Assembly: GCF_011634835.1 (NCBI RefSeq)
Contig: NZ_SIRP01000001.1
Location: forward strand, 3,509,571-3,546,667
Length of the DNA stretch: 37,097 bases
From: Isoptericola sp. BMS4
GTDB lineage: Bacteria; Actinomycetota; Actinomycetes; Actinomycetales; Cellulomonadaceae
Reading direction: 5' to 3'
Notes under the pieces: model-generated
The model's input: the letters and a program-made list of their open reading frames with translations, nothing else
What the model was told of the DNA's origin: nothing
Database searches by the model: none
Position numbers and translations under genes: made by a program
Part shown: piece after piece, positions 14,380-37,062 of the stretch
How the letters are laid out: the number at the start of each line of letters is the position of its first letter
Position numbering within the stretch: position 1 is the first letter of the stretch

Positions 14380-15420
14380 ATGAAGATCGCACCCGTCTCC
14401 CCCGCGGACGCCTCCGGTGCGGGCGACGTGGAGAACTCCTGGGTCCTGCCCGAGCAGAGGATCGCCTTCGTCTCGATCGGCAAGAACGCCTGCACGTCGA
14501 TCAAGTGGCTGCTGGCGGAGATCTCCGGGCAGGACGTCGCACGGATCATGGCCGCCGACTCGCTCCAGTCGACCCGCCGCATGCTGATCCACCACCGCAG
14601 GTCGTGGCGCGACACCCCGAAGCTCACCCAGCTCGCTCCCGAGGCCAGGGCCGAGATCTCGCCTGCCAACGGCTGGTTCGTCTTCGCCGTCGTCCGCGAC
14701 CCGCGGCTGCGCGCCTTCTCCGCCTGGCAGTCCAAGTTCCTCGTCGGCGACCCGTCGTACAGCGGCAGGAAGTACGCCGGGAGGGACTGGCTGCCACGCA
14801 CCCCCGAGTCGGCGCAGGACGTGCTCGACGACTGGGAGCGGTTCGTGGGGGCGCTCGAGCGAGGAGGGCCCGCCGGTGGCATCTCTCTCGGCGACGGCCA
14901 CTTCGCCCCGCACACGGAGCGGCTGCACGAGGAGACGGTCCCGTACAGCCGCATCTACGACATCAGCGAGATCGGCGAGCTCACCGGCGACCTGACCGAC
15001 CACCTGGTCCGCACCGTGGGGTCCTCCCCCGAGCTGGCGCTCGCCCGGGAGAACGACACGCCCCTGGCCGCCGGTCGCGAGGTCTACGCGGGCGGCATCC
15101 GCCAACGGCTCGAGGCCGTCTACGCCTCGGACTTCGAGCGCTTCGGCGACCTCTGGTCGGACTCGTTCTCGCGCGTCCTGGACCGCCCGGCGGGGTGGAG
15201 CTCCGACGCCCTGCGCGACATCGGCGCGCGGCGGGCGATCAACGAGCAGGTCGCCAGGCTCGACGCCAAGGCCAAGGAGCAGCGGCGCCGGGTCCGCGAG
15301 CTGACCCGGGAGAACGACGAGCTGCGGCGCCGCCTCGACGGCCGGCAGCCCGGGGCGTCATGGCTGGCGCGGGCGGTGCACGGCGGGGGCCGCGCCGTGC
15401 GGCGGGCGGTCGCACGCTGA
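14380..15420 (+). CDS. Sulfotransferase-family protein (Sulfotransfer_2-like)
   Basis: A 346-residue protein predicted to move sulfate from PAPS to a glycan or other hydroxyl. The 5'-phosphosulfate loop reads FVSIGKNACTSIKW (about 30-43), resembling the FVHIPKxxxTS pattern, and the 3'-phosphate site is FAVVRDPRLRAFSAW (about 102-116). The last ~60 residues carry a charged coiled coil (EQVARLDAKAKEQRRRVREL, then LTRENDELRRRLDG) and a basic tail that may mediate oligomerisation or membrane association. The ATG at 14380 is chosen; a GTG at 14365 in frame is equally weak in ribosome-site terms. It is convergent with a second sulfotransferase and separated from it by a strong hairpin. Confidence 0.82.
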   Translation: MKIAPVSPADASGAGDVENSWVLPEQRIAFVSIGKNACTSIKWLLAEISGQDVARIMAADSLQSTRRMLIHHRRSWRDTPKLTQLAPEARAEISPANGWFVFAVVRDPRLRAFSAWQSKFLVGDPSYSGRKYAGRDWLPRTPESAQDVLDDWERFVGALERGGPAGGISLGDGHFAPHTERLHEETVPYSRIYDISEIGELTGDLTDHLVRTVGSSPELALARENDTPLAAGREVYAGGIRQRLEAVYASDFERFGDLWSDSFSRVLDRPAGWSSDALRDIGARRAINEQVARLDAKAKEQRRRVRELTRENDELRRRLDGRQPGASWLARAVHGGGRAVRRAVAR

Positions 15421-15442
15421 ACCGTTCCGTTCACGCCCGGCG

Positions 15443-15478
15443 GCGTCGTCGCCGGTCCTTCCCGACCGGCGACGACGC
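15443..15478. terminator. 15-bp bidirectional terminator between two sulfotransferase genes
   Basis: GCGTCGTCGCCGGTC (15443-15457) and GACCGGCGACGACGC (15464-15478) form a perfect 15-bp stem with the 6-nt loop CTTCCC. It fills the 58-nt gap between convergent stops at 15420 and 15479, so it should terminate both. Confidence 0.85.
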
Positions 15479-16900
15479 TCACGACGCCCCCTGCACCACC
15501 ACGCCCGGCTCGGCCTCGGCGTCGAGCGCGCCGAGGAGCGTCGCGTGGTCCCGCTCGAACCGGGCCGTGTACTCCTCGAAGAGCTGCTGGTCGACCCAGT
15601 TCGCGTCACGCAGGCGCTCGCGGACAGGGTCCGCCTCCCCCTCCGTCGCGGGCTGCCCGGACCGTCCGTGGTGACCGATCCGGTCGGCCACCGGAAGTCC
15701 CGTGCTCGCGACTGCGGCGAGGTGGCTCGCGCCGAGGTGCCGCATGGTGCCCACCAGGGTGAAGCGCTCCTCCAGCGTCTCCCTGCTCCACCGCAGCAGC
15801 ACCTCGTCGGACAGGTGCGCCGTGGACCGGAACCAGAACATGTCCTCCTCGGAGGCGATCGGCCGGAAGACGCCTCGCGAGGAGAGCTCGGCGCGGGCGG
15901 CGGCACGCATCTCGGGATGGGTCATCACGATCTGCCGGGCGAGCATGTTCGTCAGGCCGTGCGACGTCGTGTACTCGACGTGCTGCGCGAAGTCCGCCGA
16001 CCGGCCGTGGTCCGCCGTCGGCACGATCCCCGGCGCCGAGATCCTCTTGTAGAAGCCCGAACGGATCTGGGAGACCGGGTCGCGCAGCACCGTGAAGTAC
16101 CTCAGGTCGGCACCCGACGGCAGCCCCGGCAGCTCGAGGGGGACCGGGTGGTGCAGGTGCACCAGGAGCGGCCGGCCGGGCCCCGCCAGCGGACGCTCCA
16201 GCGCCACCTCGAGCTGGAGGAGACCGAACCGGCGCTGGATCTCGATCATCCGACCCCACGGGACGACGTTCTTCAGCGCGGAGATCATGCTCGTCCCCCC
16301 GGAGAACGGCAGGTGGAGGAACACCGGCACGGAGCCCGGCTCCACCTGTGCGCGCAGCCGCGCGTACTCGGCGGCCACCGGCCCCTCGTCCCACACGCTG
16401 ACGGAGCTCTCCCGCACGGTGTCGAACCGTGCCTGCAGCGAGCACATCAGCTCGCGGGCCTCGTCGTAGCGGCCGAGCTCCCACAGGGCCGTGACCAGCT
16501 TGGCCCGCGGCCACCCGGGCGCCCCGGCGTCCGGCATCTCCTCGAGGTGCTCGACCGCCTCGGTGAAACGGCCGTGCTCCGCGAGCATGACGGGGAGCCA
16601 CCCCTGCGACAGCGGGTCCTCGAAGTGCGCGGCGAGTGCCGCGACGACTCCCAGGGACAGCCCGGACCAGTCACCCAGGCGGGCGCCCACCGCCGCACGG
16701 CGAACGTCGTCGACCCGCTTCGCCGAGACGTCGACTCCGCGGGCGCGGTCGACGGACAGGTCGGTGAACAGCCTCGCGAGGTCGTCCAGAGGTCCGCGAG
16801 CCGGGCCCTGCACGGGCCCGAACTGCCCGCGGAACCGTTCCCCGTGGGACTTGCCGTCACCGTAGGCGCGGCGAACGTCCCTCTCCGTCGTGTCCAGCAT
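15479..16900 (-). CDS. Sulfotransferase-family protein with N-terminal helical (TPR-like) domain
   Basis: A 473-residue protein in two parts. Residues ~1-185 are helical, with a TPR-like pattern at about 95-165 (AEHGRFTEAVEHLEE, ELGRYDEARELM). Residues ~190-470 form the sulfotransferase: PAPS 5'-loop VFLHLPFSGGTSM (193-205) and 3'-phosphate site YFTVLRDPVSQIRSGFYK (268-285). The helical part may recognise a partner or polymer. The ATG at 16900 has AAGGGG 4 nt upstream. A 20-bp perfect palindrome lies in its leader (16921-16940). It is divergent from the GT2 gene at 17076, with which it shares a 175-nt control region. Confidence 0.82.
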   Translation of the reverse strand: MLDTTERDVRRAYGDGKSHGERFRGQFGPVQGPARGPLDDLARLFTDLSVDRARGVDVSAKRVDDVRRAAVGARLGDWSGLSLGVVAALAAHFEDPLSQGWLPVMLAEHGRFTEAVEHLEEMPDAGAPGWPRAKLVTALWELGRYDEARELMCSLQARFDTVRESSVSVWDEGPVAAEYARLRAQVEPGSVPVFLHLPFSGGTSMISALKNVVPWGRMIEIQRRFGLLQLEVALERPLAGPGRPLLVHLHHPVPLELPGLPSGADLRYFTVLRDPVSQIRSGFYKRISAPGIVPTADHGRSADFAQHVEYTTSHGLTNMLARQIVMTHPEMRAAARAELSSRGVFRPIASEEDMFWFRSTAHLSDEVLLRWSRETLEERFTLVGTMRHLGASHLAAVASTGLPVADRIGHHGRSGQPATEGEADPVRERLRDANWVDQQLFEEYTARFERDHATLLGALDAEAEPGVVVQGAS

Positions 16901-16920
16901 GGGGCCCCTTCGTCGTGTCC

Positions 16921-16940
16921 GTGCGGCCGATCGGCCGCAC
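16921..16940. promoter_or_regulatory. 20-bp perfect palindrome upstream of the second sulfotransferase
   Basis: GTGCGGCCGATCGGCCGCAC is a perfect 20-bp palindrome, 20 nt upstream of the ATG at 16900 and 135 nt from the divergent GTG at 17076. A loopless palindrome in a divergent control region is more like a dimeric-protein binding site than a terminator. The binding protein is unknown. Confidence 0.5.
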
Positions 16941-17075: not shown

Positions 17076-18089
17076 GTGACGCATCGCCCCCGGATCTCCG
17101 CCGTCGTCCCCGGCAAGGACGTGGCCCCCTTCCTCGCCGACGCCCTGACGAGCCTGGGCCGCCAGGTCGAGGACCCCCGCGACCTCGAGGTCATCGTGAT
17201 CGACGACGGGTCCACCGACGCCACAGCAGACGTCGCCCGGCAGTTCACCGGCCGGCTACCCGGGCTCACGGTCCTGACCAACCCGGAGCCGAGCGGGCTG
17301 GCCAACGCCCGCAACCAGGGCCTCGCAGCAGCCACCGGCAGGTACGTGGCCTTCCTCGACGCCGACGACTGGCTCGCGCCGGGCCGGCTGGCGCACCTCG
17401 CCGACGCGTCGGACGCCCTGCGGGTCCCGTTCGTGCGGACCGACCACACGACCGTTCGCGGCCGCCGGCGAGACCTGATCCGCGCACCCCAGTCCGTCCG
17501 GGGCGTGCCCCTGGACCCGCGGGGCTCCATCCTGCCGGTGCACACCTCCACGATGGTCGACTACCCGTACGCGTGGGCGGGGATCTTCGACAGGGCGCTG
17601 GCGGAGGACGGGCTGCTGGCATTCCCGCCGGACCTGCACACCGCCGAGGACCGCCCCTGGATCTGGCGGCTCTTCCTGTCCGTGCCTCGCTACGCCGTGG
17701 TGGACGCGCCGACGCTCTGCTACCGGCGCGGCATCGCCTCGTCGCTGACGGCGATCTACGACCGTCGTCAGCTCGACATCCTCAAGGCGCTCCGGCAGGC
17801 CTACGACCTGGTGCAGCAGGACCGCGACGCCGACGCCTTCCTGCCGAAGATCACCCGGACGTCGCTCGCGCTCGTCGCGCACCACGTCGCCCGCAGCGCG
17901 AACATGCCACCCGACGTGCGGCGAGACCTGCGCGCCGGAGCGCGCGCGTTCTTCGAGGGCCTCCCCCGAGACGTCCTCGCCGCCGAGGTCCGCGTGATGC
18001 GCCGCGCACGCGCCCGGACGCTGCACCGAGTCCTGCCCCGCGGCGTGGACCGGCACCTCGCCCCCCACCTCACGGAGATCACCGCATGA
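17076..18089 (+). CDS. Family 2 glycosyltransferase
   Basis: A 337-residue GT-A enzyme. The N-terminus RISAVVPGKDVAPFLADAL is followed by the nucleotide-sugar motif VIDDGSTD (41-48) and the metal-binding DADD (95-98, in FLDADDWL). An acceptor-side AEDRPWIWRLF motif (ED near 190) is also typical. It adds a sugar from an NDP-sugar to a growing glycan on the cytoplasmic side. The start is GTG 17076 with no ribosome site, consistent with a leaderless transcript. The stop overlaps the next gene as ATGA (18086-18089). Tight coupling to the polysialyltransferase-family gene implies that the two act on the same polymer. Confidence 0.9.
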   Translation: MTHRPRISAVVPGKDVAPFLADALTSLGRQVEDPRDLEVIVIDDGSTDATADVARQFTGRLPGLTVLTNPEPSGLANARNQGLAAATGRYVAFLDADDWLAPGRLAHLADASDALRVPFVRTDHTTVRGRRRDLIRAPQSVRGVPLDPRGSILPVHTSTMVDYPYAWAGIFDRALAEDGLLAFPPDLHTAEDRPWIWRLFLSVPRYAVVDAPTLCYRRGIASSLTAIYDRRQLDILKALRQAYDLVQQDRDADAFLPKITRTSLALVAHHVARSANMPPDVRRDLRAGARAFFEGLPRDVLAAEVRVMRRARARTLHRVLPRGVDRHLAPHLTEITA

Positions 18090-19459
18090 CCACCCAGCTC
18101 GTCGTCGCCTCGACGCTCTTCGGTGCCATGACCGCTGCCGCCGCGGCCGACTCCGGACGCCTGGGGCGGCCCGACGGCGAACGCGTCCTCCTGGTGGTCA
18201 ACAACGCGCCGGCCCCCGAGCTGACACCCGCCCTCGACGAGATCCCCGGGGCCGGACCGGTGCAAGACCGGTTCGACCGGGTCGTGCACCTCACCGACCT
18301 CGTCGCTCCCGTGCACCCGTCCGACTGGCGGCCCGGGACACGGGAGCTCCCGGCGCTCGAGCGGCTCCTGCGCCACTACTGGGGTCTCGGCGACGGCCCG
18401 GTCGAGCTCGTGTGCGAGTCGATCTGGGTCAACCCCGCCCAGGCCCTGGCCCGGGTCTTCCACGACGCGCCCGTCACCGTGTACGCCGACGGTCTGATGA
18501 GCTACGGCCCGACCCGCAACCCGCTGCCCCTGGAGGTGGCACAGCGTCTGGGCGTGCTGCTGCACCTCGACCTGGTCCCGGGCCTGCGCCCGGTCCTGCT
18601 GTCCGAGCACGGTGTCGAGCCGGTCGTGGTGCCCACGGCAGCCTTCCGCGATCTCGTGCACGAGACCGCCGCCGCGGGCGGTCCGGCCGGCGAGCGCCAG
18701 GAGGCGGGCACGTCCCCCCGTCGCGCGGTCGTCGTCGGCCAGTACCTGGCCGCACTGGGTCTCATGACGGCGGAGGAAGAGGCCGACCTGCACGCCGACA
18801 TGATCCGGGCAGCGGTCTCCTCGGGCGCCGACGTCGTCCGGTTCAAGCCCCACCCGTCCGCCCCGCCGGGCATGCTGGAGCCGCTCCACCGGACCGCCCG
18901 GGACCTGGGGGTCGCCCTCGAGGTGCTCGACGACCCGCTCCCGGTCGAGGTGCACCTCGACCGTGCCGAGCACGTCGCGGTCGTCGGGTGCTTCTCCACC
19001 GCCCTCGCCACGGCTCGCGCGATCATGTCGACGCCGTCGGTGGCCGTGGGAGCGGCGGGGCTGCTGGAGCGGCTCACCCCGTTCCAGAACAGCAACCGCG
19101 TGCCGCTGACGGTGATCGACGCCGTCCACCGGCCGCGGTCCCCGTACGCCGACGTCGCGCACCTCCAGGGACTCGTCGACACCGTCGCGCACGTCATGCA
19201 GCCGCAGACGTGCGCCGCGCTGCGCCACGGCGCCGTCACGTTCCTGGCCGGCCTCCCCGAGGACGAGCGGGCCAGGTACTTCGACACGTCCAGGCTCACA
19301 CGCCTCGAGCTGCCCGGAGGTCGCCGACGGCACCCCGTGAAGCGTGCGGCAGCCGACGCCGCGTCGCGGCTGCTGCGGATGCCGGCGTTCGCTCGCGTCG
19401 ACGAGCGCACCCGGTCGTCCGCGTGGCGCCGCCGGCTCGCCCGGGCCGTCGGGACGTGA
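18086..19459 (+). CDS. Polysialyltransferase-family (alpha-2,8-polysialyltransferase-like) protein
   Basis: A 457-residue protein resembling the bacterial polysialyltransferase family (PF07388-type). It starts QLVVASTLFGAMTAAAAADS, as in that group, and continues with VTVYADGLMSYGP (about 131-141). FKPHPSAPP with the His-Pro pair (about 253-261) and a late VGCFSTALATA (about 300-310) match the HP and S/T motifs that bind the CMP-sugar donor. The C-terminal ~60 residues are basic. The ATG at 18086 overlaps the GT2 stop. Family members elongate nonulosonic (sialic/Kdn-like) polymers, but no nonulosonate or CMP-sugar synthesis gene lies in this window, so the actual donor is uncertain. Confidence 0.75.
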   Translation: MTTQLVVASTLFGAMTAAAAADSGRLGRPDGERVLLVVNNAPAPELTPALDEIPGAGPVQDRFDRVVHLTDLVAPVHPSDWRPGTRELPALERLLRHYWGLGDGPVELVCESIWVNPAQALARVFHDAPVTVYADGLMSYGPTRNPLPLEVAQRLGVLLHLDLVPGLRPVLLSEHGVEPVVVPTAAFRDLVHETAAAGGPAGERQEAGTSPRRAVVVGQYLAALGLMTAEEEADLHADMIRAAVSSGADVVRFKPHPSAPPGMLEPLHRTARDLGVALEVLDDPLPVEVHLDRAEHVAVVGCFSTALATARAIMSTPSVAVGAAGLLERLTPFQNSNRVPLTVIDAVHRPRSPYADVAHLQGLVDTVAHVMQPQTCAALRHGAVTFLAGLPEDERARYFDTSRLTRLELPGGRRRHPVKRAAADAASRLLRMPAFARVDERTRSSAWRRRLARAVGT

Positions 19460-19508
19460 GCGCGGGGCAGGCCTCCGTAGATCACCGGGCACGAGGCGGC
19501 GACGGCCA

Positions 19509-19522
19509 GCCGGTCAGCCGGC
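19509..19522. terminator. Weak hairpin between convergent glycan genes
   Basis: GCCGG (19509-19513) and CCGGC (19518-19522) flank TCAG, which includes the stop codon of the GT61 gene. It lies in the 54-nt gap between the convergent stops at 19459 and 19514. The stem is only 5 bp, so this is a tentative terminator. Confidence 0.2.
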
Positions 19523-21172
19523 CCTGATCACCCGGTCCAGCTGCTCACGGTGCTGAGCGAAGTCGAAGGTCCAGGACGACTTGTAGGCGGCACGCGACCA
19601 CCCACCCGGCGGGTGCTGCACGTCCGGCCGGTTCCAGAAGTAGTGGAGGCGGACGTCGAGCGGCAGGGAGATCAGCACCTCGTTCCGCGCCGTGTACGCC
19701 TGCTGGCTGAGCACGATCATGTCCTCGAGGCGGTCCGCGAAGAGCGTGTTGAACATCGCCGAACCTCCGAAGCCGGCGACGACCCGCGCCCGGGAGAAGA
19801 TCGCCGCCTGCGTGGCGAGCCCGTAGTCCTCGGGGTAGATCACCTCGAATCCCGCCGCCGAGAAGTAGTCCTCCACCTCCTCACGGTTGAGGCACCGCCG
19901 GTTGCCCAGCGTGTCCCGGCGCGAGACGAAGATCCGGTCCCAGGACGGCGCGGAGTCGTCACGCAGCCCGTCCCGGATCCGCTCCCAGACCGCCCGGATC
20001 TCGGGATGCACGTAGTGCGGCGCGGAGTTGTGGAACATGGGGGTCGCCCCGTACATCGACTCCAGGTACACCGGCCGGTCGACCCAGGTGATGTCCTCGG
20101 GCCGGATGCCGAAGGCGGAGAACACCAGGCGCTCGAGCCACGGGTCGCGCTCGTGGGGGTACCTGATGCGGAAGATCGCCCGCAGGTCCGGGGCGTCCTG
20201 CTTCGCCCGGTCCCACCCCCACAGGCGCGAGACCACCTCGGTCATGAGGTGGCCGAAGTGACCGGAGTTCTCGGAGTCCAGCAGGTAGTACGAGCCGTGG
20301 AGCTCGTCGGTGGGCACGACCTGCCGGTCGAGGCGCGCGAAGCTCTTGCCGACGTCGACGAGCCGGGGGTTGGTCAGGTCGGCGGCGAGATGGTGACGGA
20401 ACGAGTCCGGGAGGATCTCGTTCTCGGTGAACGTCAGCGCGTTGCTGACCAGGCCGATGCGCCCCTGGTAGTGGCGCAGGTGCAGGGGCGGGGTGTCGAC
20501 CGTGGTCTTCAGACCGCCCAGCGTCTTGCTCGCACCGTGCGAGACGATCGTGGTGCCGGAGGCGAACGTGCCTGCCGGGACTCGCTGCAGCTCCCGCACG
20601 GTGGTGGCCGAGCGCCGGGACGCCAACATCCGATTCGCCCACCGGTCCGAGAGCTTGAGGTAGTGCCGGCCGCTCTTGCGGACGCGGATCCAGTCCCGGT
20701 CGAGGCGCACCTCCGCGGTCGCGTGCGCGAGCTCGCGGGCGGCCGTCGGCACGGCGTCGTGGCCGTGGGCGAGACCGTCGCCCAGCCGACGCAGCAGCGT
20801 CTCCAGACGGTTTCCCGCCGGGTACGCCGTCAGGGCCGCCCTGGGGATCGCGTACTCGCCGCCCGGACCCAGGTGGAACAGCAGACCGCGCAGCATCGCG
20901 GCGTGCTTCTCCGGCGGTGCCACGCGGACGTTGACGATCCGGTCGACGGGACCGCGCAGCTTGAGGTGCCACTGCACGTTCGACTCCCTGTCGAACCGCA
21001 GGTAGTGCTCGTGCAGGCCTTCCAGGCCCCACTCGTCGTACGCCACCGGGGCGATGACGAACAGCTCGTCCTGCCGGTACGGGGCGAGGTAGCCCGTGAG
21101 CACCTCGGGAGGCCGGTCGTCCGCGACGACGACGGTGCGCGGGGGACGGTCGTCAATCGGACCACGCGACAT
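19514..21172 (-). CDS. Family 61-type glycosyltransferase (DUF563)
   Basis: A 552-residue protein whose C-terminal half matches GT61. It has SGHFGHLMTEVVSRLWGW (about 303-320), RIFVSRRDTLGNRRCLNREE (about 410-430), then FEVIYPEDYGLATQAAIF and VVAGFGGSAMFNTLF (about 460-475). The His of GHFGHL and the late GxGGSA block are family hallmarks. The N-terminal ~220 residues are not recognised. GT61 enzymes transfer pentoses or hexoses to glycans; the sugar here is unknown. The start ATG 21172 has GGGAGGGGAGCG immediately upstream. It lies 64 nt after the pyruvyltransferase/LicD fusion gene on the same strand and is probably part of that operon. Confidence 0.85.
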   Translation of the reverse strand: MSRGPIDDRPPRTVVVADDRPPEVLTGYLAPYRQDELFVIAPVAYDEWGLEGLHEHYLRFDRESNVQWHLKLRGPVDRIVNVRVAPPEKHAAMLRGLLFHLGPGGEYAIPRAALTAYPAGNRLETLLRRLGDGLAHGHDAVPTAARELAHATAEVRLDRDWIRVRKSGRHYLKLSDRWANRMLASRRSATTVRELQRVPAGTFASGTTIVSHGASKTLGGLKTTVDTPPLHLRHYQGRIGLVSNALTFTENEILPDSFRHHLAADLTNPRLVDVGKSFARLDRQVVPTDELHGSYYLLDSENSGHFGHLMTEVVSRLWGWDRAKQDAPDLRAIFRIRYPHERDPWLERLVFSAFGIRPEDITWVDRPVYLESMYGATPMFHNSAPHYVHPEIRAVWERIRDGLRDDSAPSWDRIFVSRRDTLGNRRCLNREEVEDYFSAAGFEVIYPEDYGLATQAAIFSRARVVAGFGGSAMFNTLFADRLEDMIVLSQQAYTARNEVLISLPLDVRLHYFWNRPDVQHPPGGWSRAAYKSSWTFDFAQHREQLDRVIRAG

Positions 21173-29417: not shown

Positions 29418-30320
29418 TTAGAAGTAGCCCTCTCGCTTACGGTCCTCCATCGCGGCCTCGCTCACCTTGTCGTCGCCGCGCGTCGCGCCGCGCTCGGTGA
29501 GCCGCACCGCCGCGACCTCCTCGACGATCGCGTCGAGGGTGGTGGCCTCGGACGCCACGGCGGCGGTCAGGTTGGCGTCGCCGACCGTGCGGTAGCGCAC
29601 GGAACGCACCTCGGAGGTCTCCCCCTCCTTGAGCGGGGTGAACTCGTTGACGGCGAAGAGCATGCCTCCCCGGTCCACGACCTCGCGCTCCTTGGCGAGG
29701 TACAGGTCCGGCAGGTCGATCTTCTCGGCGGCGATGTACGCCCAGATGTCCAGCTCGGTCCAGTTGGACAGCGGGAACACGCGGATGCTCTCGCCCTGGT
29801 GGACCCGGCCGTTGTACAGGTTCCAGATCTCCGGGCGCTGGTTCTTGGGGTCCCACTGCCCGAAGTCGTCGCGGAAGGAGAACACGCGCTCCTTGGCGCG
29901 GGCCTTCTCCTCGTCGCGGCGCCCGCCGCCGAAGAGGGCGTCGAAGCCGTTCTTCTCGACGGCCTCCAGCAGCACCGGCGTCTGGATGCGGTTGCGGGAG
30001 CCGTTCGGCTCCTCGGCGACGAGCCCGCGGTCGATCGCGTCCTGGACGGAGGCGACGACGAGCTGCACGCCCGTCCGCTCGACCCAGCGGTCCCGGGTGT
30101 CCAGGACCGTCTGGAAGTTCAGGCCCGTGTCCACGTGCATGATCGGGAACGGGATCCGCGCCGGCGCGAACGCCTTGGCCGCCATGTGGAGCATGACGAT
30201 GGAGTCCTTGCCGCCCGAGAACAGCAGGCAGGGACGTTCCATCTCCGCGACGACCTCGCGGAAGATGTGGATGCTCTCCGCCTCGAGGCTGCGGAGCTGG
30301 CTCAGGACGTGAGACGTCAC
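29418..30320 (-). CDS. cysD: Sulfate adenylyltransferase subunit 2
   Basis: A 300-residue catalytic subunit of ATP sulfurylase (PP-loop family). Motifs: SGGKDS (35-40), HVDTGLNF, FGGGRRDEEKARAKER, and PLSNWTELDIWAYI in the C-terminal half, ending RKREGYF as in the family. The GTG at 30320 overlaps the cysQ stop (GTGA, 30317-30320) and has GGAAGGTG about 8 nt upstream. The frame stays open to 31265 but that is an antisense artefact through cysQ. It forms the CysDN heterodimer with the next gene and makes APS from sulfate. Confidence 0.97.
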   Translation of the reverse strand: MTSHVLSQLRSLEAESIHIFREVVAEMERPCLLFSGGKDSIVMLHMAAKAFAPARIPFPIMHVDTGLNFQTVLDTRDRWVERTGVQLVVASVQDAIDRGLVAEEPNGSRNRIQTPVLLEAVEKNGFDALFGGGRRDEEKARAKERVFSFRDDFGQWDPKNQRPEIWNLYNGRVHQGESIRVFPLSNWTELDIWAYIAAEKIDLPDLYLAKEREVVDRGGMLFAVNEFTPLKEGETSEVRSVRYRTVGDANLTAAVASEATTLDAIVEEVAAVRLTERGATRGDDKVSEAAMEDRKREGYF

Positions 30321-31177
30321 GACTGGGCACCTTCCTTGCTTTCGACCCCGACCGCCGTCAGCGCCGCACGCAGGTGCGTCGCCAGGGCCGGGTGGCACAC
30401 GAACAGATCGGGGAGCCAGGGATCCTGGCGGTTGTACTCGAGCGGCGAGCCGTCCAGGCGCGTGCACTCCAGGCCGGCGGCGCCGGCCACCGCGACGGGT
30501 GCCGCGGAGTCCCACTCGTACTGGCCGCCGCCGTGGACGTAGGCGTCGACGGTCCCGTCGACGACGGAGATCACCTTGACGCCCGCCGACCCCATGGGGA
30601 CCAGCTCGACGTCGCCGCGGGCGGCCAGGTCGGACACGAACGCCGGGGGGCGGCTGCGGCTGGCCGCGAGGCGCAGCGGGCGGCTGCCGTCGAGCACACC
30701 GTCCGGGTCGGCCGGGGTAGCGGGGCTCACGGTGCTGAGCACCGTGCCGCGCGCCGGCAGGCCGACGGCTCCGGCGGTGAGCCCGGCGCCGCGCTGCCAG
30801 AGGGCCACGTGGACGGCGAAGTCGTCGCGCCACCGCCCGGCGACGTCGCCGTCCGCGTGCCGCTCGGCGAACTCGCGAGTGCCGTCGAGGGGGTCGACGA
30901 TCCACACCCGGTCGGCGGCGACGCGCGCGGCGTCGTCCTTCGCCTCCTCGGACAGGACCGCATCGCCCGGGCGCGCGTGCGCCAGTGCGGCGGCGAGCCA
31001 CTCCTGGCTGGCCGCGTCGCCGGCGTCCTTGAGCTCCTTGGCGTCGAATCCGCCGCCGGCGGCGTCCACGGCGGCCCGGAGGCCGAGCAGGACCTGCCCG
31101 GCGCCCTCGGCGAGCGCCACGGCGAGATCGACGTCGGAGAGCGACGGGTCCGGGTGGATCGGACTCGGCACGGCCAT
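30317..31177 (-). CDS. cysQ: 3'(2'),5'-bisphosphate nucleotidase (CysQ-type PAP phosphatase)
   Basis: A 286-residue member of the inositol monophosphatase superfamily. Metal-binding residues lie in LSEEAKDD (75-82), VWIVDPLDGTREF (91-103) and the C-terminal YEWDSAAPVAVA. In sulfur metabolism it hydrolyses 3'-phosphoadenosine 5'-phosphate (PAP), the inhibitory by-product of PAPS-dependent sulfotransferases, and can also act on PAPS. It is first in the cysQ-cysD-cysN-sulfotransferase transcript and overlaps cysD by 4 nt, which fits a pathway that ends in sulfation. The ATG at 31177 has GAGGAG 5-6 nt upstream. Confidence 0.93.
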   Translation of the reverse strand: MAVPSPIHPDPSLSDVDLAVALAEGAGQVLLGLRAAVDAAGGGFDAKELKDAGDAASQEWLAAALAHARPGDAVLSEEAKDDAARVAADRVWIVDPLDGTREFAERHADGDVAGRWRDDFAVHVALWQRGAGLTAGAVGLPARGTVLSTVSPATPADPDGVLDGSRPLRLAASRSRPPAFVSDLAARGDVELVPMGSAGVKVISVVDGTVDAYVHGGGQYEWDSAAPVAVAGAAGLECTRLDGSPLEYNRQDPWLPDLFVCHPALATHLRAALTAVGVESKEGAQS

Positions 31178-31318: not shown

Positions 31319-32320
31319 ATGGACATCGACCTGCTCCTGATCCTCGGCGGCCTCGCGGTCGGCTTCGTCGTGGGTCTCACCGGGATGGGCGGCGGCGCCC
31401 TGATGACGCCGATGCTCATCTTCGTGTTCGGGATCCCCCCGCTGACGGCCGTCTCCAGCGACGTCGTCGCGAGCTTCTTCATGAAGCCCGCGGGAGCGAT
31501 CGTGCACCTGCGGCGCCGGACCGTGAACCTGCAGCTGGTGCTCTGGCTCTGCGTCGGGTCGGTGCCGGCGGCGTTCGCGGGCGCCCTGATCATCCAGTCC
31601 CTGCCGTTCGGGGAGTCCCTCGACGCCGGCATCAAGATCGTGCTCGGCGTCGCCCTGCTCGTGGCCTCGCTCGGCCTGGTCGTCCGGGCGGTGCTGGGGA
31701 TGCTGCAGCGCCGCACCGCCCTCGGCGAGGGCCCCGCCGCCCCCAGCAGCCCCGAGGTGCACGTCCGCAAGGTGGCCACCGTGGTCGTCGGCGCGGTCGC
31801 GGGCCTGCTGGTCGGCATGACGTCGGTCGGCGCGGGGTCGATCATCATCGTGGTGCTCCTGCTGCTGTACCCGGCGCTCAAGGCCTCCCAGCTCGTGGGC
31901 ACCGACCTCGTGCAGGCGGTGCCGCTGGTCGCGGCCGCGTCCCTCGGCCACCTCATCTACGGCGACTTCGACCTGTGGCTCACGGTCTCGCTGCTCATCG
32001 GCGCGATCCCGGGCGCCTGGTTCGGCGCCCAGGTGTCGAGCCGCGCCCCGGGCGGGATCATCCGCCGCGCGCTCGCGATCCTCCTCCTCGGATCGAGCCT
32101 CAAGCTGCTCGGCGCGTCCGTCGCCGTCGTGTTCGGCGCGATGGCCGGCGCGCTGGTCGTCGGTAACCTGCTGTGGATCGTGGTGCGGGAGCGGATCAAG
32201 AAGTTGCCGCCGAAGCCGATGCCGCTGGGCACGGTCTCCGCCCCCGCGCCACGGACCGACCCGCCGGCGGACCAGCCGACGGACCAGCCGACCTCGAAGG
32301 ACTCGTCACCCCGCTCATGA
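31319..32320 (+). CDS. TauE/SafE-family sulfur-anion permease
   Basis: A 333-residue membrane protein with about eight hydrophobic segments. The two family repeats are visible: [19 protein letters not shown] in the first half and [20 protein letters not shown] in the second. A charged cytoplasmic loop lies at about 135-150, and the tail is Pro/Asp-rich. TauE/SafE proteins move sulfite, sulfate, sulfoacetate or other small anions; export and import have both been proposed. Overlap of its stop with the APS-kinase ATG (ATGA, 32317-32320) argues for a role in sulfate supply to, or sulfite relief from, this pathway. Start ATG 31319 has no good ribosome site. Confidence 0.9.
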
Positions 32321-33564
32321 GCCTGCCCGAGACCACCCACGTCCTGACCGCCGACGAGCTCGACCTGCTGGAGCTCGCCCTGGGCGGCGGCGCCGCGTGG
32401 GTCCCGCCCGTCGGGCTCCCCGACGGCGCGGTGACCCTCACCGACGCCGAGAACACGCCCCTGGCCGTCGCCGACGACGGCGGGCTGCGCGCCGTCAAGC
32501 CGTTCGCCCGCGCCGCGGGCCCGCACTGGGACCCGGAGCTGCGCAGGACCGCGGACGCCGTGCGGGGCGAGCCGGCGGACGGCCCGACCGTCGCCGTCGT
32601 CCTGACCGAGGCGCCCACGCGGGCCGAGGTCGAGGACCTGCCCGGCGTCGTGGCGGGCGCCGGGCGCGTGCTGCTCCTCGTGCCGGCCTCCCGGCGCTCC
32701 CCCGCGCCGGGTGCGGTCGGCGCCCCGGGCCTCGTGCGCATCGCCGCCGAAGTCGCGAACGGCATCGCGACCGACACCACGACCGACGCCGGGCCGCGGG
32801 CCGACGTCGTCGCCGTGCCGTGGCCCGCCACCGCCCCCGGCGCCCTGCGCTGGGGCGACGTCGGCGCACGGTACGGCGCCGACCGCACCGTGGTGCTCGC
32901 CGACCGGCGCGACGCCGCCACCCGGGAGCGCGTGGCGGGCCTCAGGTCCGTCTGGGCCGACGAGGTCGCCGCGCTCTACCCCGAGAGCTCGGCTGCCGAG
33001 CTCGCGCGTGCCGCGCGCACCGCGCGGGCCGGCGGCGCCGTCGTCTTCTTCACGGGGCTGTCCGGCTCGGGCAAGTCGACCGTCGCCCGCGCGCTCGCCG
33101 CCGAGCTCGACGACGAGGGCCTGCACACCACGCTGCTCGACGGCGACGAGGTGCGCCAGCACCTGTCGCGGGGGCTGGGCTTCGACAAGGAGTCCCGCGA
33201 GCTCAACGTCGAGCGGATCGGCTACGTCGCCTCGCTGGTCTCCTCGCACGGCGGCGTCGCGGTCGCGGCGCCCATCGCGCCGTTCGCCTCGGGCCGCGCC
33301 CGGGTGCGCGAGCACGCGGAGGCGGCCGGGCTGTTCCTGCTCGTGCACGTCAGCACGCCCCTCGAGGTGTGCGAGGCGCGGGACCGCAAGGGCCTGTACG
33401 CCAAGGCCCGCCGCGGCGAGATTCCGGAGTTCACCGGGATCTCCTCGCCCTACGAGGAGCCGACCGACGCCGACCTCGTGATCGACACCTCGCGGGTCGA
33501 GGTGGCCGACGCCGTCGCGCAGGTGCGCGCGGCGCTCCTCGCCCGCCTGGACGCCCGCGGCTGA
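32317..33564 (+). CDS. cysC: Adenylylsulfate (APS) kinase with a degenerate ATP-sulfurylase-like N-terminus
   Basis: A 415-residue protein. The C-terminal APS-kinase domain (about 240-410) is complete: Walker [13 protein letters not shown] (about 244-255), [37 protein letters not shown] and the lid region [13 protein letters not shown]. It phosphorylates APS to PAPS, the donor for sulfotransferases. The first ~230 residues ([33 protein letters not shown], then an alpha/beta stretch) resemble the PUA-like and nucleotidyl domains of ATP sulfurylase, but the Q-x-R-N-P-x-H-R-x-H active site is absent ([12 protein letters not shown] at the expected position). It is thus probably a non-catalytic or regulatory Sat remnant, as in Sat-APSK fusions. 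Start ATG 32317 overlaps the TauE/SafE stop. Confidence 0.92.
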
Positions 33565-33572
33565 GCCGGCGG

Positions 33573-33610
33573 GACCCGGGCCGGCCGCACGATGGCGGAC
33601 GGTCCGGGTC
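33573..33610. terminator. Hairpin between convergent cysC and the exporter ATPase gene
   Basis: GACCCGGGCC (33573-33582) pairs with GGTCCGGGTC (33601-33610) with one mismatch across an 18-nt loop. The 44-nt gap between convergent stops (33564 and 33609) is almost entirely this structure, so it likely ends both transcripts. Confidence 0.5.
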
Positions 33611-34580
33611 AGTCGCCGTTCTGCTTCTTGCCGTTCCTGCCGTTCTTGCGGCGCCCGCGAGGTCCGACCCCGCCCGCGCGGCCGGACGACCTCGCCTGGC
33701 GGTGCGCGCGGACGAACTCCTTGTAGTGCGGGAGGACCTCGGAGGTACTGCCGTCCATGACGAGCTGACCCTGGTGCACCCACAGCACGCGGGTGCACAT
33801 CGCCTCGACGGTGCCGATCGAGTGGCTCACGAGGAAGATCGTCCCGGCGTTCTCGCGAACCTCGTCGATCCGCGCCTTCGACCGCGCCTTGAAGGCGGCG
33901 TCGCCGGTGGCGAGCGCCTCGTCGATCATGAGGATGTCCGGCGTCGCCGACGAGGAGATCGCGAACCGCAGCCGCGCTCCCATGCCGGACGAGTAGGTCT
34001 TCATCGGCATGTAGACGAAGTCGCCGATGCCGGCGAACTCCACGACCTCGTCGAACCGCTCCTCGACCTGCTTCGGCGTCAGGCCCAGGGCCAGGCCGCC
34101 GATCATGATGTTGCGCTCGCCGGTCAGCTCCGGCATCAGCGCGGCGTTGACGCCGAGCAGCGCCGGCTCCCCCGCGACGTAGACGGCGCCCGAGTGGGGC
34201 GGGATCAGGCCGGTGACGGCCCGCAGCAGGGTGCTCTTGCCGGAGCCGTTGACGCCGACGATGCCGATCGCCTCGCCGTGGCGCGCGACGAACGAGATGC
34301 CCCGCACCGCGTGCACCTCGCTGACCGAGCCGACGTGCTGCGTGGTGGAGCTCAGCAGCCGCCGGACGAACGACCGCCTGGGCGCCGCGGCCTGCTCCAC
34401 GTGCGCGCCGGAGCGGGCGGCCTGGCGCGCCTTGCCCCCGAAGACGCGGTAGACGATGTGCAGGTCGTCGACGACGAGCACCGGGTCGCCGAGCGTCGCG
34501 ACCGGCGGGCCCCCTTCGAGGTCCTCCGGCTCGAGCTCGGCGTCCAGGTCGACGTCGAGGTGAAGGTCCGACTCAGTCAC
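33609..34580 (-). CDS. Teichoic-acid/O-antigen-type polysaccharide exporter ATPase (TagH/Wzt-like)
   Basis: A 323-residue ATPase. An acidic N-terminus (~residues 1-30) precedes the nucleotide-binding domain: Walker A GVNGSGKST (about 109-117), ALLGVNAALMPELTGERNI (the TagH/Wzt-typical Q-loop region), signature YSSGMGARLRFA, and Walker B ILMIDEALATGDAAF. The tail is strongly basic and Asn/Lys-rich (RRKNGRNGKKQNG) and may touch the membrane or polymer. It powers export of lipid-linked polymer through the neighbouring permease. GTG 34580 overlaps the permease gene's last 8 nt. The family is clear; the substrate is inferred from the teichoic-type genes around it. Confidence 0.93.
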   Translation of the reverse strand: MTESDLHLDVDLDAELEPEDLEGGPPVATLGDPVLVVDDLHIVYRVFGGKARQAARSGAHVEQAAAPRRSFVRRLLSSTTQHVGSVSEVHAVRGISFVARHGEAIGIVGVNGSGKSTLLRAVTGLIPPHSGAVYVAGEPALLGVNAALMPELTGERNIMIGGLALGLTPKQVEERFDEVVEFAGIGDFVYMPMKTYSSGMGARLRFAISSSATPDILMIDEALATGDAAFKARSKARIDEVRENAGTIFLVSHSIGTVEAMCTRVLWVHQGQLVMDGSTSEVLPHYKEFVRAHRQARSSGRAGGVGPRGRRKNGRNGKKQNGD

Positions 34581-35571
34581 GGCCGTACCGCTCCTCTCCT
34601 CGCCAGAAGACGATGAACCCGATGACGAACGTGCCGACGGCCCACAGGCCCGCCCAGAGCCACATCCAGGGGTCCTGCGGGATCTCCGGCTCCTGGGTGA
34701 GGATCGACCGGCCCACGTACAGGAACACGGCGATCGGCTGGTACTCCAGGATGGGGGCGACGACGGCCTGCACGCCGGCGCTCAGGTGACCCGTGTAGTG
34801 GGTCACGGGGAAGATGACGCCCGACCCGAACATCGCGAGCCGCATGATGAAACCGATGATGTTGTCGAGGTCCGGGGTGATCGCGACCATGCGGGCCATG
34901 ATGAACGCGAGGCCCGTGTTGAACAGCCACAGGAGCGCGACGATCCCGGGCAGCAGCAGCCAGCTCCACGTGACGTGCACGAGCGGGTAGGCCGGCAGGA
35001 GGCCGCTGAGCAGGACGATCGTGCACATCACGAGGAGCGCGGGGACGAGCGTCGCGAGCAGCGACACCACCTGCGAGATCGGCAGCACCGCCCGGGGGAA
35101 GTGCAGCGACCGGATGAGGTTGGTCTTCTTGGCGATCGACTTGGCGCCGCCGTTCACCGACTGCTCGACGAACCGGAACAGGAACGTCCCGATCGTGATG
35201 AACGCGATGGTGTTCTCCACGCCACGGCTGGCCTGCAGCAGGATGCCGAAGATCAGGATGTAGACGGTCGCGTTGAGCACCGGGTTGAGGATCGCCCAGA
35301 GCTGGCCCAGGTAGTTGTTCTGGTTCTTCGCGTAGGCGTTGGCGGTGCCCAGCACCCGGATGAACGCCCAGCGCGAGACCACGTCGCGGATGTAGCGTCC
35401 CAGCGGGGGACGGACCCCCATCTGCTGGAGCCCGTACTCCTGCGCGAGAGCGCGACGCTCCGCGGAGGTGGTGTCCGGCACGATCGGCTCCGGGGGCCGG
35501 AGCGGGTCGCTCCCGGGGCCCGGCGTCCCGCGGTCACCCGATGCGGCGCCCGTGGTGGTGTCGGTGGTCAC
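34573..35571 (-). CDS. Polysaccharide/teichoic-acid exporter permease (TagG/Wzm-like)
   Basis: A 332-residue ABC-2 membrane protein. A ~75-residue cytoplasmic N-terminus precedes about six membrane helices. The region NNYLGQLWAILNPVLNATVY before the second half of helix 1 is the family signature, followed by SIAKKTNLIRSLHFPRAVLP and a re-entrant FGSGVIFPVTHY stretch near the C-terminus. It forms the channel for the ATPase gene, which it overlaps. GTG 35571 has CAGGA about 4 nt upstream. It is divergent from the TagB/F-type gene at 35803, sharing a 231-nt promoter region; together they suggest assembly and export of a polyol-phosphate polymer. Confidence 0.93.
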   Translation of the reverse strand: MTTDTTTGAASGDRGTPGPGSDPLRPPEPIVPDTTSAERRALAQEYGLQQMGVRPPLGRYIRDVVSRWAFIRVLGTANAYAKNQNNYLGQLWAILNPVLNATVYILIFGILLQASRGVENTIAFITIGTFLFRFVEQSVNGGAKSIAKKTNLIRSLHFPRAVLPISQVVSLLATLVPALLVMCTIVLLSGLLPAYPLVHVTWSWLLLPGIVALLWLFNTGLAFIMARMVAITPDLDNIIGFIMRLAMFGSGVIFPVTHYTGHLSAGVQAVVAPILEYQPIAVFLYVGRSILTQEPEIPQDPWMWLWAGLWAVGTFVIGFIVFWRGEERYGRD

Positions 35572-35802
35572 GAATCCTGAAAACCCGTCTTCCGAGGTAC
35601 GGCCAGCGGCTGCCCGGCCCCGACGATCCTACAGCGAACCGCCTGACCGGAGCTCAATAGCACTATACCGATAGGTTCAGTAGGTCATCACGCCCGGACC
35701 CTCACGTTCCCGTCCGCGCACGACGCCGGCGGTACCCCGCGCGGAACCTCCCGCGTGGGATACTCGTGCGCCGTCGGACCATGCGCCCCCGGGAAGGAAC
35801 GG
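35572..35802. promoter_or_regulatory. Divergent promoter region of exporter and TagB/F-type gene
   Basis: A 231-nt gap with no gene. An AT-richer island at about 35654-35688 contains a leftward -10-like TATAGT (complement of 35662-35667), about 90 nt before the permease GTG. On the right, GATACT (35759-35764) lies 38 nt before the ATG at 35803. -35 elements are not clear. The sequences are consistent with separate outward promoters. Confidence 0.4.
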
Positions 35803-37062
35803 ATGACGCACGCCAGCACCCCGCAGCCCACGCTCGCGGCCCGCGCCCGCACCCTCGCCGCGCGCGCGCTGCTCAGCGCCGGGTCTCGGGTCAAGCACCT
35901 CATCAACCGGACGATCGACGTCGAGCCGCCACCGTTCGACCCCACGCTCGACGCGCTTCCGGCCTTCCCGGTCGTGGCCTACTTCGCCGACCTGCCCGAC
36001 CAGGCCTACCAGATCCGGCAGTGGCTGCCCGTGCTCGAGCGGGTCGCCGAGCAGCACCGGTTGGCGATCGTCACCCGCCAATGGGAGACCGCGCTGCTGC
36101 TGCGCGACGCCACCACGCTGCCGGTCCTCTTCACCCGGCACCTGGACGGGCTGCGCCAGCTGTACGACCGGATCGGCGTGAAGACCGTGGTCTACGTCAA
36201 CAACGGGATGCGCAACTTCCAGTCGCTCATCTACCAGCGGGCGCTGCACGTGCACGTGAACCACGGGGAGTCCGACAAGATCTCGATGGTCTCCAACCAG
36301 GCCAAGGCCTACGACCACGTGGTCGTCGCCGGCCAGGCCGCGGTGGAGCGTCACCGGCGTGCGCTGATCAACTTCGACCTCGACCGCCTCGTGCCCTGCG
36401 GGCGCCCGCAGCTGGACCTGGACGTGGCCCCCTCCCTGGCGCCCGTCGCCGGACGCCGGACGGTGCTGTACGCCCCCACCTGGTCCGGGGAGGACGCAGC
36501 GAACAACTACACGTCGCTCGACCTGTACGGCGTGCCGATCGTGCGGGCGCTCCTCGCCCGGGACGACGTGCGCCTCGTCTACAAGCCGCACCCCCGGGTC
36601 CGCTCGGCGACCGACCCGGGCGTCGCCGGCGCCCACGCCGAGATCGTCCGCCTCGTGGGGGCGGCGCGCCGGGCCGGCGCGCCGCACGAGCTGCCGCTCG
36701 ACGCGGACGTCCTCGGCCTCTTCGAGAGCGTCGACGTGCTGGTCACCGACATCTCGTCCGTCGGCCTGGACTTCCTCTACCTGCGCCCCGACGCCCCGAT
36801 CGTGCTGACGGACCGGCGCACCGACCGGGACCGGCTCCTCGCCGAGGCGCCCGTGGCGCGGGCCACCGACGTCGTCGACGCGACGACGGTCGACGACCTC
36901 CCGCAGATCCTCGCGGCCACGCTCACGGCCGACCCGCACCGCGCCGAGCGCGAGAAGGTCCGCGACCACTACTTCGGGTTCGCCCGCGGCGAGAGCAGCC
37001 GGCGGTTCCTCGACTTCGTCACCGACTGCCTCGAGCGCCGCGACGCGATGCTCGCCGAATGA
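35803..37062 (+). CDS. CDP-glycerol:glycerophosphate glycerophosphotransferase family protein (TagB/TagF-like)
   Basis: A 419-residue protein of the GT-B-like TagB/F family. Motifs: VNHGESDKISMVSNQAKAYD (about 162-181, with the conserved His), VLYAPTWSGE (about 221-230), YKPHPRV (about 260-266) and VTDISSVGLDFLYLRPD (about 314-330). A basic amphipathic N-terminus (about 10-35) could bind the membrane, as in TagF. It should transfer a polyol-phosphate unit from a CDP-activated donor: either priming (TagB-like) or elongation, the latter also possible for the fusion at 23683-27252. The ATG at 35803 has AAGGAA 4-6 nt upstream; an in-frame GTG at 35755 is less likely. The gene is complete; the window ends just after it. 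Confidence 0.92.
   Translation: MTHASTPQPTLAARARTLAARALLSAGSRVKHLINRTIDVEPPPFDPTLDALPAFPVVAYFADLPDQAYQIRQWLPVLERVAEQHRLAIVTRQWETALLLRDATTLPVLFTRHLDGLRQLYDRIGVKTVVYVNNGMRNFQSLIYQRALHVHVNHGESDKISMVSNQAKAYDHVVVAGQAAVERHRRALINFDLDRLVPCGRPQLDLDVAPSLAPVAGRRTVLYAPTWSGEDAANNYTSLDLYGVPIVRALLARDDVRLVYKPHPRVRSATDPGVAGAHAEIVRLVGAARRAGAPHELPLDADVLGLFESVDVLVTDISSVGLDFLYLRPDAPIVLTDRRTDRDRLLAEAPVARATDVVDATTVDDLPQILAATLTADPHRAEREKVRDHYFGFARGESSRRFLDFVTDCLERRDAMLAE

Follow-up and report, generated by a model that had tools for sequence, protein, structure and literature searches.

A predicted locus for assembly, sulfation and export of a teichulosonic-acid-type wall glycopolymer in Isoptericola sp. BMS4

Within the 37,097-nt stretch of Isoptericola sp. 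BMS4 DNA that was analysed (the window), Pfam and NCBIfam profile searches identify a contiguous set of genes at ~14.4–37.1 kb (14380..37062). All gene classes named by a first-pass annotation were recovered there, namely three sulfotransferases, cysQDN and cysC, a TauE permease, two TagB/F-type transferases, a pyruvyltransferase/LicD fusion, GT2, GT61, a polysialyltransferase and an exporter, with the third sulfotransferase recognised by motif and profile only. Sulfotransferase 1 (14380..15420, forward strand; alternative start at 14365) matches PF03567 over the Pfam cut-off (3e-10) and carries the PAPS-loop motif SIGKNACTS together with VVRDPRLR. It is followed by a TPR-sulfotransferase-like protein (15479..16900, reverse), a GT2 glycosyltransferase (17076..18089, forward; PF00535, 1.8e-29), a polysialyltransferase-family protein (18086..19459, forward; PF07388, 1.2e-31), a GT61 glycosyltransferase (19514..21172, reverse; PF04577, 1.3e-20), a pyruvyltransferase and LicD fusion (21237..23663, reverse; PF04230, 3.7e-12; PF04991, 5.2e-9) and a GT2 and TagF-type (Glyphos_transf) fusion (23683..27252, reverse; PF00535, 4.2e-36), in which PF04464 matches over model positions 14–365 of 367. 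Sulfotransferase 2 (27360..28067, reverse; PF03567, 3.4e-12, over the Pfam cut-off; HIPKTGGSS and VVRDPVARFRS) lies directly behind cysN, on the same strand and 15 nt away.

The cys genes themselves encode the ATP sulfurylase large subunit CysN (28083..29414, reverse; PF00009, 3.6e-43; PF22594, 3.7e-30), the small subunit CysD (29418..30320, reverse; PF01507, 4e-41 in the genome search), a CysQ-like PAP phosphatase (30317..31177, reverse; PF00459, 7.1e-30; TIGR01331 CysQ, 1.4e-23, below the curated cut-off), a TauE/SafE-family permease (31319..32320, forward; PF01925, 2.8e-43), whose substrate is probably sulfate, and the APS kinase CysC (32317..33564, forward; PF01583, 3.9e-57; TIGR00455 over cut-off), which carries an additional N-terminal region of ~230 aa. 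Beyond these lie a Wzt/TagH-type exporter ATPase (33609..34580, reverse; PF00005, 2.4e-18), which in NCBIfam is most similar to teichoic-acid exporters (2.5e-62, below the curated cut-offs), a Wzm/TagG-type permease (34573..35571, reverse; PF01061, 4.5e-6, with a score 0.1 bit under the cut-off; NF050109, 3.1e-6, below cut-off) and a second TagB/F-like transferase (35803..37062, forward; PF04464, 1.7e-13, partial, model positions 125–365; alternative start at 35755). The combination of TagF/TagB-like transferases with a TagGH-like exporter resembles the tag/tar loci of Bacillus and Staphylococcus, whose TagF-type polymerase is present here (PF04464, 2.7e-94); to our knowledge, those loci carry no sulfotransferase or PAPS genes.

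The locus runs on for ~13 kb past the end of the window. Just beyond the window are a MobA-like nucleotidyltransferase, which lies beside a TagB/F-like gene, and a second polysialyltransferase (L003:8048-9439) that is a paralogue of the PF07388 protein described above. At 9.8–11.9 kb beyond the window end, a single gene (L003:10454-12574) fuses a CMP-nonulosonate cytidylyltransferase (PF02348), a HAD phosphatase and a NeuB domain (PF03102, 1.7e-83), and is adjoined by manA. NeuB models score under their cut-offs on this NeuA-HAD-NeuB fusion, and the HAD domain matches the KDN-9-phosphatase model at 1.2e-27, which is below its cut-off and scores lower than the KdsC model. The gene set fits Kdn, which we infer in preference to other nonulosonates. 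Because the NeuA-HAD-NeuB fusion, ManA and the second polysialyltransferase all lie within 13.5 kb past the window end, the polymer is probably nonulosonic, of teichulosonic-acid type; the polyol phosphate proposed by the first-pass annotation may still form a part of it.

The sulfotransferases of such loci belong to several families. The TPR-type protein has no Pfam sulfotransferase match at E≤1 and weak TPR/PPR-type matches only; it is assigned by its motifs, HLPFSGGTS and VLRDPVSQIRSG, by its relatives beside cysC in Promicromonospora and by an hhalign comparison in which its profile matches PF03567-type proteins (E 3.4e-5, probability 72%). The motifs in these sulfotransferases are presumably PAPS-binding. 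A TPR-type gene is the next gene after cysC in G006, G031 and G048 (gap 41–70 nt) and lies between cysC and the Wzt gene in P. kroppenstedtii (L018). PF03567 is present in 12 of the 18 Isoptericola genomes with 20 matches, 18 of which are within 19 kb of cysC, itself single copy in all 18 genomes; the two exceptions are 266 kb from cysC (G042) and on a different contig (G087). A PF03567-type gene directly follows cysN on the same strand in 10/18 genomes, with gaps of 7–19 nt in eight and of 94 and 112 nt in two.

A further type of sulfotransferase-like protein, KTGTT, was found in 23 of 39 genomes with cysC and in none of 41 without (Fisher 5.5e-10), and outside the genus in 11/21 versus 0/41 (7e-7). 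Some rows of the query profile came from such cysC loci, in eight genomes; with these genomes removed, the counts are 15/31 versus 0/41 (2.6e-7), and 9/19 versus 0/41 outside the genus (6e-6). There are 51 KTGTT matches, of which 36 are on the cysC contig (29 within 30 kb of cysC, 7 farther away) and 15 on other contigs. The family has no over-cut-off match among the Pfam models scanned (the BMS4 copy near the locus reaches 0.076, and the best value, from a relative, is 8.7e-4), and its profile matches PF03567-type proteins weakly (30%). Additional families are represented by PF13469 beside cysN (G060) and PF00685 in the G084 locus, while no sulfotransferase of the tested types was found in 10 of the 39 cysC-containing genomes; one such genome, G077, nevertheless has NeuA/NeuB and the exporter. 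The locus yields candidate carbohydrate sulfotransferases that are missed by Pfam at its cut-offs, and their co-occurrence with APS kinase makes their function testable.

For 26 of the 39 genomes, the stretch fetched around cysC contains an exporter permease; none is seen in the stretches fetched for the other 13, some of which are short or end at contig ends. NeuA/NeuB-family genes, DUF6716 and u348 occur together in 19 of the 39 neighbourhoods, all 19 of which also contain the permease. Across 81 genomes, the joint presence of NeuB and cysC (both in 13) is not significant (p = 0.078), and NeuB is within 15 kb of cysC in 10 of these 13. Comparison of the genomes shows that linkage of the locus genes to cysC and the exporter recurs in relatives. 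The parts are separable, however: G092 and G093 retain the cys core, but the stretch fetched for each shows no permease and no recognised sulfotransferase, and in G060 and G010 NeuA/NeuB lie with u348 and DUF6716 far from cysC, the 20 kb fetched there carrying no permease label. The neighbourhood comparison speaks mostly against the scattering of cys and glycan genes that the first-pass annotation had set as its refutation. Since the family matches are over cut-off, bar the weak ones stated above, and the layout recurs in relatives, the gene set is more than a chance assemblage.

We favour, with a probability of about 0.72, a reading in which the locus directs the assembly, sulfation and export of an anionic, teichulosonic-acid-type wall glycopolymer that is probably Kdn-based. 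In the proposed pathway, ManA would supply mannose-6-phosphate, which the NeuB-like domain would condense with PEP to Kdn-9-phosphate; the HAD domain would strip the phosphate and the cytidylyltransferase domain would generate CMP-Kdn. The chain would be built in the cytoplasm by the polysialyltransferase-family and GT enzymes, and the pyruvyltransferase would put on pyruvate ketals. Sulfate imported via TauE would be converted by CysDN to APS and by the APS kinase to PAPS, from which the sulfotransferases would sulfate the chain, with CysQ clearing PAP, before the polymer is exported through Wzm/Wzt and attached to the wall. The analysis thus supports the sulfated, probably pyruvylated exported polymer envisaged originally, with PAPS made beside the sulfotransferases. 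The TagF-type fusion, LicD and the MobA-like nucleotidyltransferase point either to a second polymer or to a polyol-phosphate or phosphodiester part of this one; a polyol-phosphate part made by TagF is possible.

Such a polymer has a chemical precedent in the sister genus. Promicromonospora citrea 665T is reported to have a sulfated, 7,9-pyruvylated Kdn teichulosonic acid, a cell wall glycopolymer containing Glc-3-sulfate and 7,9-pyruvyl-Kdn (Dmitrenok et al. 2017, as reported in the review PMC6801904). In P. citrea ATCC 15908, the 20-kb contig L129 carries Wzt, Wzm, NeuA and NeuB alongside a partial cysC. It also holds a GT8/CST-I fusion, three matches to PF04230, one of which falls just short of the cut-off, and two genes of the KTGTT type, neither with an over-cut-off match among the Pfam models scanned. 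It shares cysC, Wzt, Wzm, u348, DUF6716, GT2, NeuB and NeuA with the BMS4 locus; its pyruvyltransferase-family and sulfotransferase-like genes come on top of this common set. By contrast, BMS4 has other sulfotransferase types beside cysC, and relatives of its TagF fusion and LicD genes were not found on the 20 kb of L129. For the 665T polymer, the review passage describes chemistry and no genes (PMC6801904). The combination was not known to the first-pass annotation as a described system; our literature search found no gene assignment for a sulfated Kdn wall polymer, but the product chemistry itself is already known (PMC6801904).

Alternatively, the TagF proteins could make a sulfated, pyruvylated polyol-phosphate polymer of teichoic type, and the nonulosonic genes could belong to another polymer that has only the exporter in common with it. 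The LicD domain, the full-length PF04464 domain of the fusion and the MobA-like gene beside a TagB/F-like gene would all suit this arrangement, as would the occurrence of PF04464 in 12/18 genus genomes, full-length matches within 13 kb of cysC in six of them (G000, G042, G082, G083, G085, G088) and the separation of nonulosonic genes from cysC in G060 and G010. We regard it as unlikely, given that PF04464 was not found in 6/18 genus genomes, two of which (G090, G081) keep sulfotransferase, cysC, exporter and NeuA/NeuB, that the TagF fusion finds no relative on L129, and that a polysialyltransferase-family gene lies within the window itself.

Since exporters of the Wzm/Wzt type also handle capsules and O-antigens, the product might be secreted, as a capsule or exopolysaccharide, instead of being bound to the wall. 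The predicted sulfated exopolysaccharide cluster wps-1 of Actinoplanes missouriensis would favour this reading (PMC13390465). Secretion is nonetheless doubtful, as the P. citrea polymer is reported from the cell wall (PMC6801904) and the exporter ATPase best matches teichoic-acid exporters.

The PAPS genes need not act for the polymer alone. Since no ATP sulfurylase besides CysDN turned up in the genome (one CysD; PF01747, Sat, found in 0/18 genus genomes), and the genes for CysH and for a sulfite reductase, the latter recognised by eye, are 2.1 Mb from the locus at C1:1438298, CysDN should also feed sulfur assimilation. The complete supply-and-recycling module noted earlier is present as CysDN, CysC and a CysQ-like protein, but should not be exclusive to the polymer. 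With cysH and sulfite reductase outside it, the cysQ-D-N/cysC cluster lacks a feature of assimilatory clusters. The CysH of this genome carries cysteine motifs that we take to be of APS-reductase type, and APS kinase should therefore be unneeded for assimilation. That cysQ-D-N, TauE and cysC are ordinary assimilation genes merely beside a capsule-like locus is very improbable: it would agree with the sole ATP sulfurylase, with the cys core of G092 and G093 and with the Corynebacterium glutamicum cysDN-cysZ cluster, which serves assimilation, but not with an APS-reductase-type CysH, the reported lack of cysC in C. glutamicum, the sulfotransferase 7–19 nt after cysN in 8/18 genomes or the way sulfotransferase-like genes track cysC (PMC1266029 for C. 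glutamicum). In that species, fpr2-cysIXHDNYZ likewise places cysDN next to a probable sulfate permease gene, but it holds cysH/cysI in a species described without cysC (PMC1266029), whereas here cysC is present and cysH is distant.

Among known systems, SCO4873-SCO4882 of Streptomyces coelicolor is a teichulosonic acid cluster that similarly serves a Kdn-containing wall polymer in an actinobacterium; its product differs in being a phosphate-free Gal-Kdn polymer, and the word stem 'sulfat' is absent from the main texts of the three reports (PMC13011467, PMC7831098, PMC11481543). A. missouriensis wps-1 also has two predicted sulfotransferases, and the neighbouring Sat/APS-kinase-family gene AMIS_7390 is required for normal sporangia; however, wps-1 uses a Wzx/Wzy pathway, its sulfation is a prediction, and Wzm/Wzt and nonulosonic genes go unmentioned in the sections of that report consulted (PMC13390465). 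Sulfated surface polysaccharides with sulfotransferase genes in the locus are also described for Cobetia marina (PMC11766843) and a Vibrio sp. (PMC11641403), although these are capsules of Gram-negative marine bacteria, likened here by description only. According to the 2026 report on A. missouriensis, cyanobacteria are still the only bacteria with known sulfated polysaccharides (PMC13390465), in contrast to these published capsules (PMC11766843, PMC11641403) and the P. citrea polymer (PMC6801904).

On balance, we lean towards a broader model in which the conserved PAPS module (cysQ-D-N, TauE and cysC) beside Wzm/Wzt forms a fixed sulfation platform in Isoptericola, Promicromonospora and related genera, with swappable sulfotransferase types (PF03567, TPR, KTGTT, PF13469, PF00685) and sugar cassettes giving species-specific sulfated, often pyruvylated nonulosonic wall polymers. 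Sulfated glycans of Gram-positive bacteria have rarely been traced to genes. Together with its P. citrea relative, the BMS4 locus provides a concrete set of genes, open to testing by knock-out, for a sulfated Kdn wall polymer, and the BMS4 locus would supply the missing genes for the polymer known chemically in the sister genus. If the broader model is true, these genera would offer a Gram-positive parallel to variable sulfated glycans and a gene set for wall-polymer sulfation, which would explain the orphan P. citrea structure.

The window, which covers positions 3,509,571-3,546,667 of contig 1 in a genome of 4.43 Mb, was analysed with GC-frame and codon-model gene calling followed by Pfam scans, and the resulting calls bear out the gene list of the first-pass annotation for the stretch between 14.4 and 37.1 kb. 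The left edge of the locus is formed by a gamma-glutamyltranspeptidase gene (window 12362-14260), a relative of which turns up in the stretches fetched for 12 of the 18 genomes of the genus, the own genome counted. Two reverse-strand ORFs (17801-19492 and 18502-19485) were dropped as genes, the real gene at this place being 18086-19459 on the forward strand. An Rfam scan of the window returned nothing at gathering scores and a tRNA search found none. The named relatives closest to the APS kinase CysC (window 32317-33564, forward strand) belong to Isoptericola, at 64-71% identity, and to Promicromonospora, where the long matches show 57-59% and two partial ones 68 and 77%. We note that this protein carries ~230 additional N-terminal residues (window 32317-33006) without a Pfam match, into which the best matches from both genera reach.

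The locus continues into the 13.5 kb immediately past the window (L003), which hold a second TagB/F-like gene along with genes for a MobA-like nucleotidyltransferase and a GT4. They also encode u348, a family of 348-aa proteins that no Pfam entry matches convincingly, the putative glycosyltransferase DUF6716 and a GT2. Detected in an identical set of 17 loci, u348 and DUF6716 (together L003:4563-6847) are possibly a polymerase or transferase pair. At L003:8048-10443 lies another polysialyltransferase-family gene, again accompanied by a GT2 gene, such that this pair is present twice, the other copy being located at window 17076-19459. The same DNA encodes a 706-aa protein in which CMP-nonulosonate cytidylyltransferase, HAD phosphatase and NeuB domains are fused, adjoined by mannose-6-phosphate isomerase (ManA). 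The HAD domain matches the models for KDN-9-phosphate phosphatase (1.2e-27) and KdsC (5.6e-30), both under the cut-off. Since Kdn-9-phosphate derives from mannose-6-phosphate and PEP, the presence of ManA beside the fusion points to Kdn. Further past the window end (L004), a KTGTT-type sulfotransferase-like gene (L004:2568-3794) lies 26 kb from cysC, and a second ManA-like gene was recognized by sequence pattern (L004:9120-10343). The first-pass annotation had proposed a sulfated, probably pyruvylated, polyol-phosphate-containing wall polymer; sulfation is supported, as probably is pyruvylation, but the proposed backbone was incomplete, with NeuA-HAD-NeuB and ManA lying past the window. The TagF and LicD genes may contribute phosphodiesters to the same polymer or belong to a different one.

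The product class is already known chemically, with a polymer of Promicromonospora citrea as the precedent. The contig L016 of strain ATCC 15908, which we take to be the same type strain as 665T, sits exactly within L129. The gene order runs from a partial cysC through Wzt, Wzm, u348, DUF6716, GT2, NeuB and NeuA-HAD to a pyruvyltransferase-family gene, a GT8/CST-I fusion, a second pyruvyltransferase-family gene (slightly below the cut-off), a KTGTT-type gene, a third pyruvyltransferase-family gene, a second KTGTT-type gene and an amidase; neither KTGTT protein has a Pfam sulfotransferase match. The polymer of P. citrea 665T, as described in a review (PMC6801904), is a Kdn polymer with a repeat that contains Glc-3-sulfate and 7,9-pyruvylated Kdn. 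Judged from gene content, the contig would encode what this structure demands, which constitutes our strongest single argument. According to the same review, the strain also makes a pyruvylated galactan (PMC6801904), and some of the pyruvyltransferase-family genes may therefore serve the latter. In the open-licence literature searched, judged mostly by titles and the beginnings of abstracts, we found no description of the locus or of the exchangeable-sulfotransferase arrangement, nor of genes that would make a sulfated wall polymer of this kind, and the portion of PMC9912281 available to us contains no passage on the subject.

By genome comparison, the sulfotransferases and the APS kinase appear to travel together. 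With cysC scored as present at E<1e-40, it occurs in 26 of 81 family genomes (for most of which 40 first-look candidates were scored) and in 18/18 genus genomes, giving 39 distinct genomes; in the genus it is invariably single-copy. Genes of relatives were called with a custom codon model trained on the window, which misses some, for example cysC in G027 and G046. PF03567 was found in 12 of the 18 genus genomes with 20 matches, 18 of them within 19 kb of cysC; of the two exceptions, the G087 copy is on a different contig in a broken assembly and the G042 copy lies 266 kb from cysC. Across the 81 family genomes PF03567 is restricted to five, namely the five of this genus in that sample. A PF03567-type gene is the next gene after cysN, on the same strand, in 10/18 genus genomes, with a gap of 7-19 nt in eight. 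The KTGTT profile (A2; 12 rows, drawn from eight of the 23 matched genomes plus L017 and L021) matches 23/39 genomes with cysC versus 0/41 without (41 of the 55 cysC-negative genomes in the set), and 15/31 versus 0/41 when the eight genomes that supplied rows are removed, although Fisher values overstate the association because related genomes are not independent. Additional types are represented by two PF13469 proteins near cysN in G060 and, in G084, by a PF00685 protein next to which lie a pyruvyltransferase-family gene and a GT8/CST-I fusion, whereas PF00685 (Sulfotransfer_1) has no match in the own genome. Altogether, 29 of the 39 cysC-positive genomes carry some sulfotransferase-like type (27 plus G060 and G084); none was found in the other 10, where PF03567 (81 family and 18 genus genomes) and KTGTT were sought genome-wide and other types in fetched stretches and scans.

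The TPR protein (window 15479-16900, reverse strand) is an uncertain candidate for the third sulfotransferase of the window, based on motifs, a profile match and the position of its relatives. It directly follows cysC with a gap of 41-70 nt in three Promicromonospora-like genomes (G006, G031 and G048); in P. kroppenstedtii (L018) it is placed between the cysC and Wzt genes. It occurs in 2/297 genomes of the order, and cysC neighbourhoods yielded three more family genomes that were undrawn or missed by the order survey. When solved structures were searched, no sulfotransferase was matched by the two proteins used as queries (sulfotransferase 2 and the TPR protein) or by the profiles of the TPR and KTGTT types; the TPR protein retrieved mainly repeat proteins. 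A second KTGTT-type gene of the own genome (L152:9544-10605) lies 1.0 Mb from the locus. Several relatives carry a trio near NeuA/NeuB (L102:13230-15792, L096:11612-14156) in which two paralogues of the KTGTT type accompany a conserved LDVEKSGST protein of ~258 aa, the one scanned example of which matches PF03567 weakly (0.013); this trio is absent at the corresponding place in the own genome. In genomes that lack a sulfotransferase gene after cysN, its place is often taken by a gene for a ~700-aa protein (for example in G091, G092, G093, G006, G031 and G048). The sole one scanned, from G093 (L116:12411-14573), is an acyltransferase-3/SGNH fusion, which may mean that acetylation replaces sulfation.

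The exporter and nonulosonic genes likewise appear linked to cysC by position. Within the fetched neighbourhoods (up to ~20 kb per side, shorter at contig ends or where one stretch was fetched), a Wzm-type permease lies near cysC in 26/39 genomes (15/18 of the genus, 11/21 others), and the NeuA/NeuB family, DUF6716 and u348 are co-present in 19/39, always with the permease. Genome-wide, NeuB occurs in 28 and cysC in 26 of the 81 family genomes. Both are present in 13, an association by presence that is not significant (p = 0.078) and was set aside, such that distance alone was used: NeuB lies within 15 kb of cysC in 10 of these 13 genomes. In G060 and G010, NeuA/NeuB are far from cysC, and their stretches with u348 and DUF6716 bear no permease label within the fetched 20 kb. 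In the more distant Cellulomonas composti (L021), a 21-kb stretch unites NeuA, NeuB, cysC and cysQ-D-N with a TagF-like gene and two genes of the KTGTT type. A contig of a metagenome-assembled genome labelled Chloroflexi (L017:5600-12520) carries cysN-D-Q, TauE, cysC and a KTGTT-type gene in the order found here, reflecting either transfer or a binning error.

A PAPS supply dedicated solely to the polymer was rejected. The own genome encodes two PF01507 proteins, the CysD of the window and a CysH 2.1 Mb away within a sulfite reductase-CysH-siroheme locus (neighbours identified by eye), and a Sat-type ATP sulfurylase was found in none of the 18 genus genomes. With this single CysD and no Sat, CysDN should serve both assimilation and sulfation. 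The APS-reductase route of assimilation can do without cysC, and this gene should mark the point at which the pathway branches off to sulfation. In the fetched neighbourhoods of G092 and G093, the cys core stands without a permease or a recognized sulfotransferase, and can thus persist after the glycan genes are lost or be present before they arrive.
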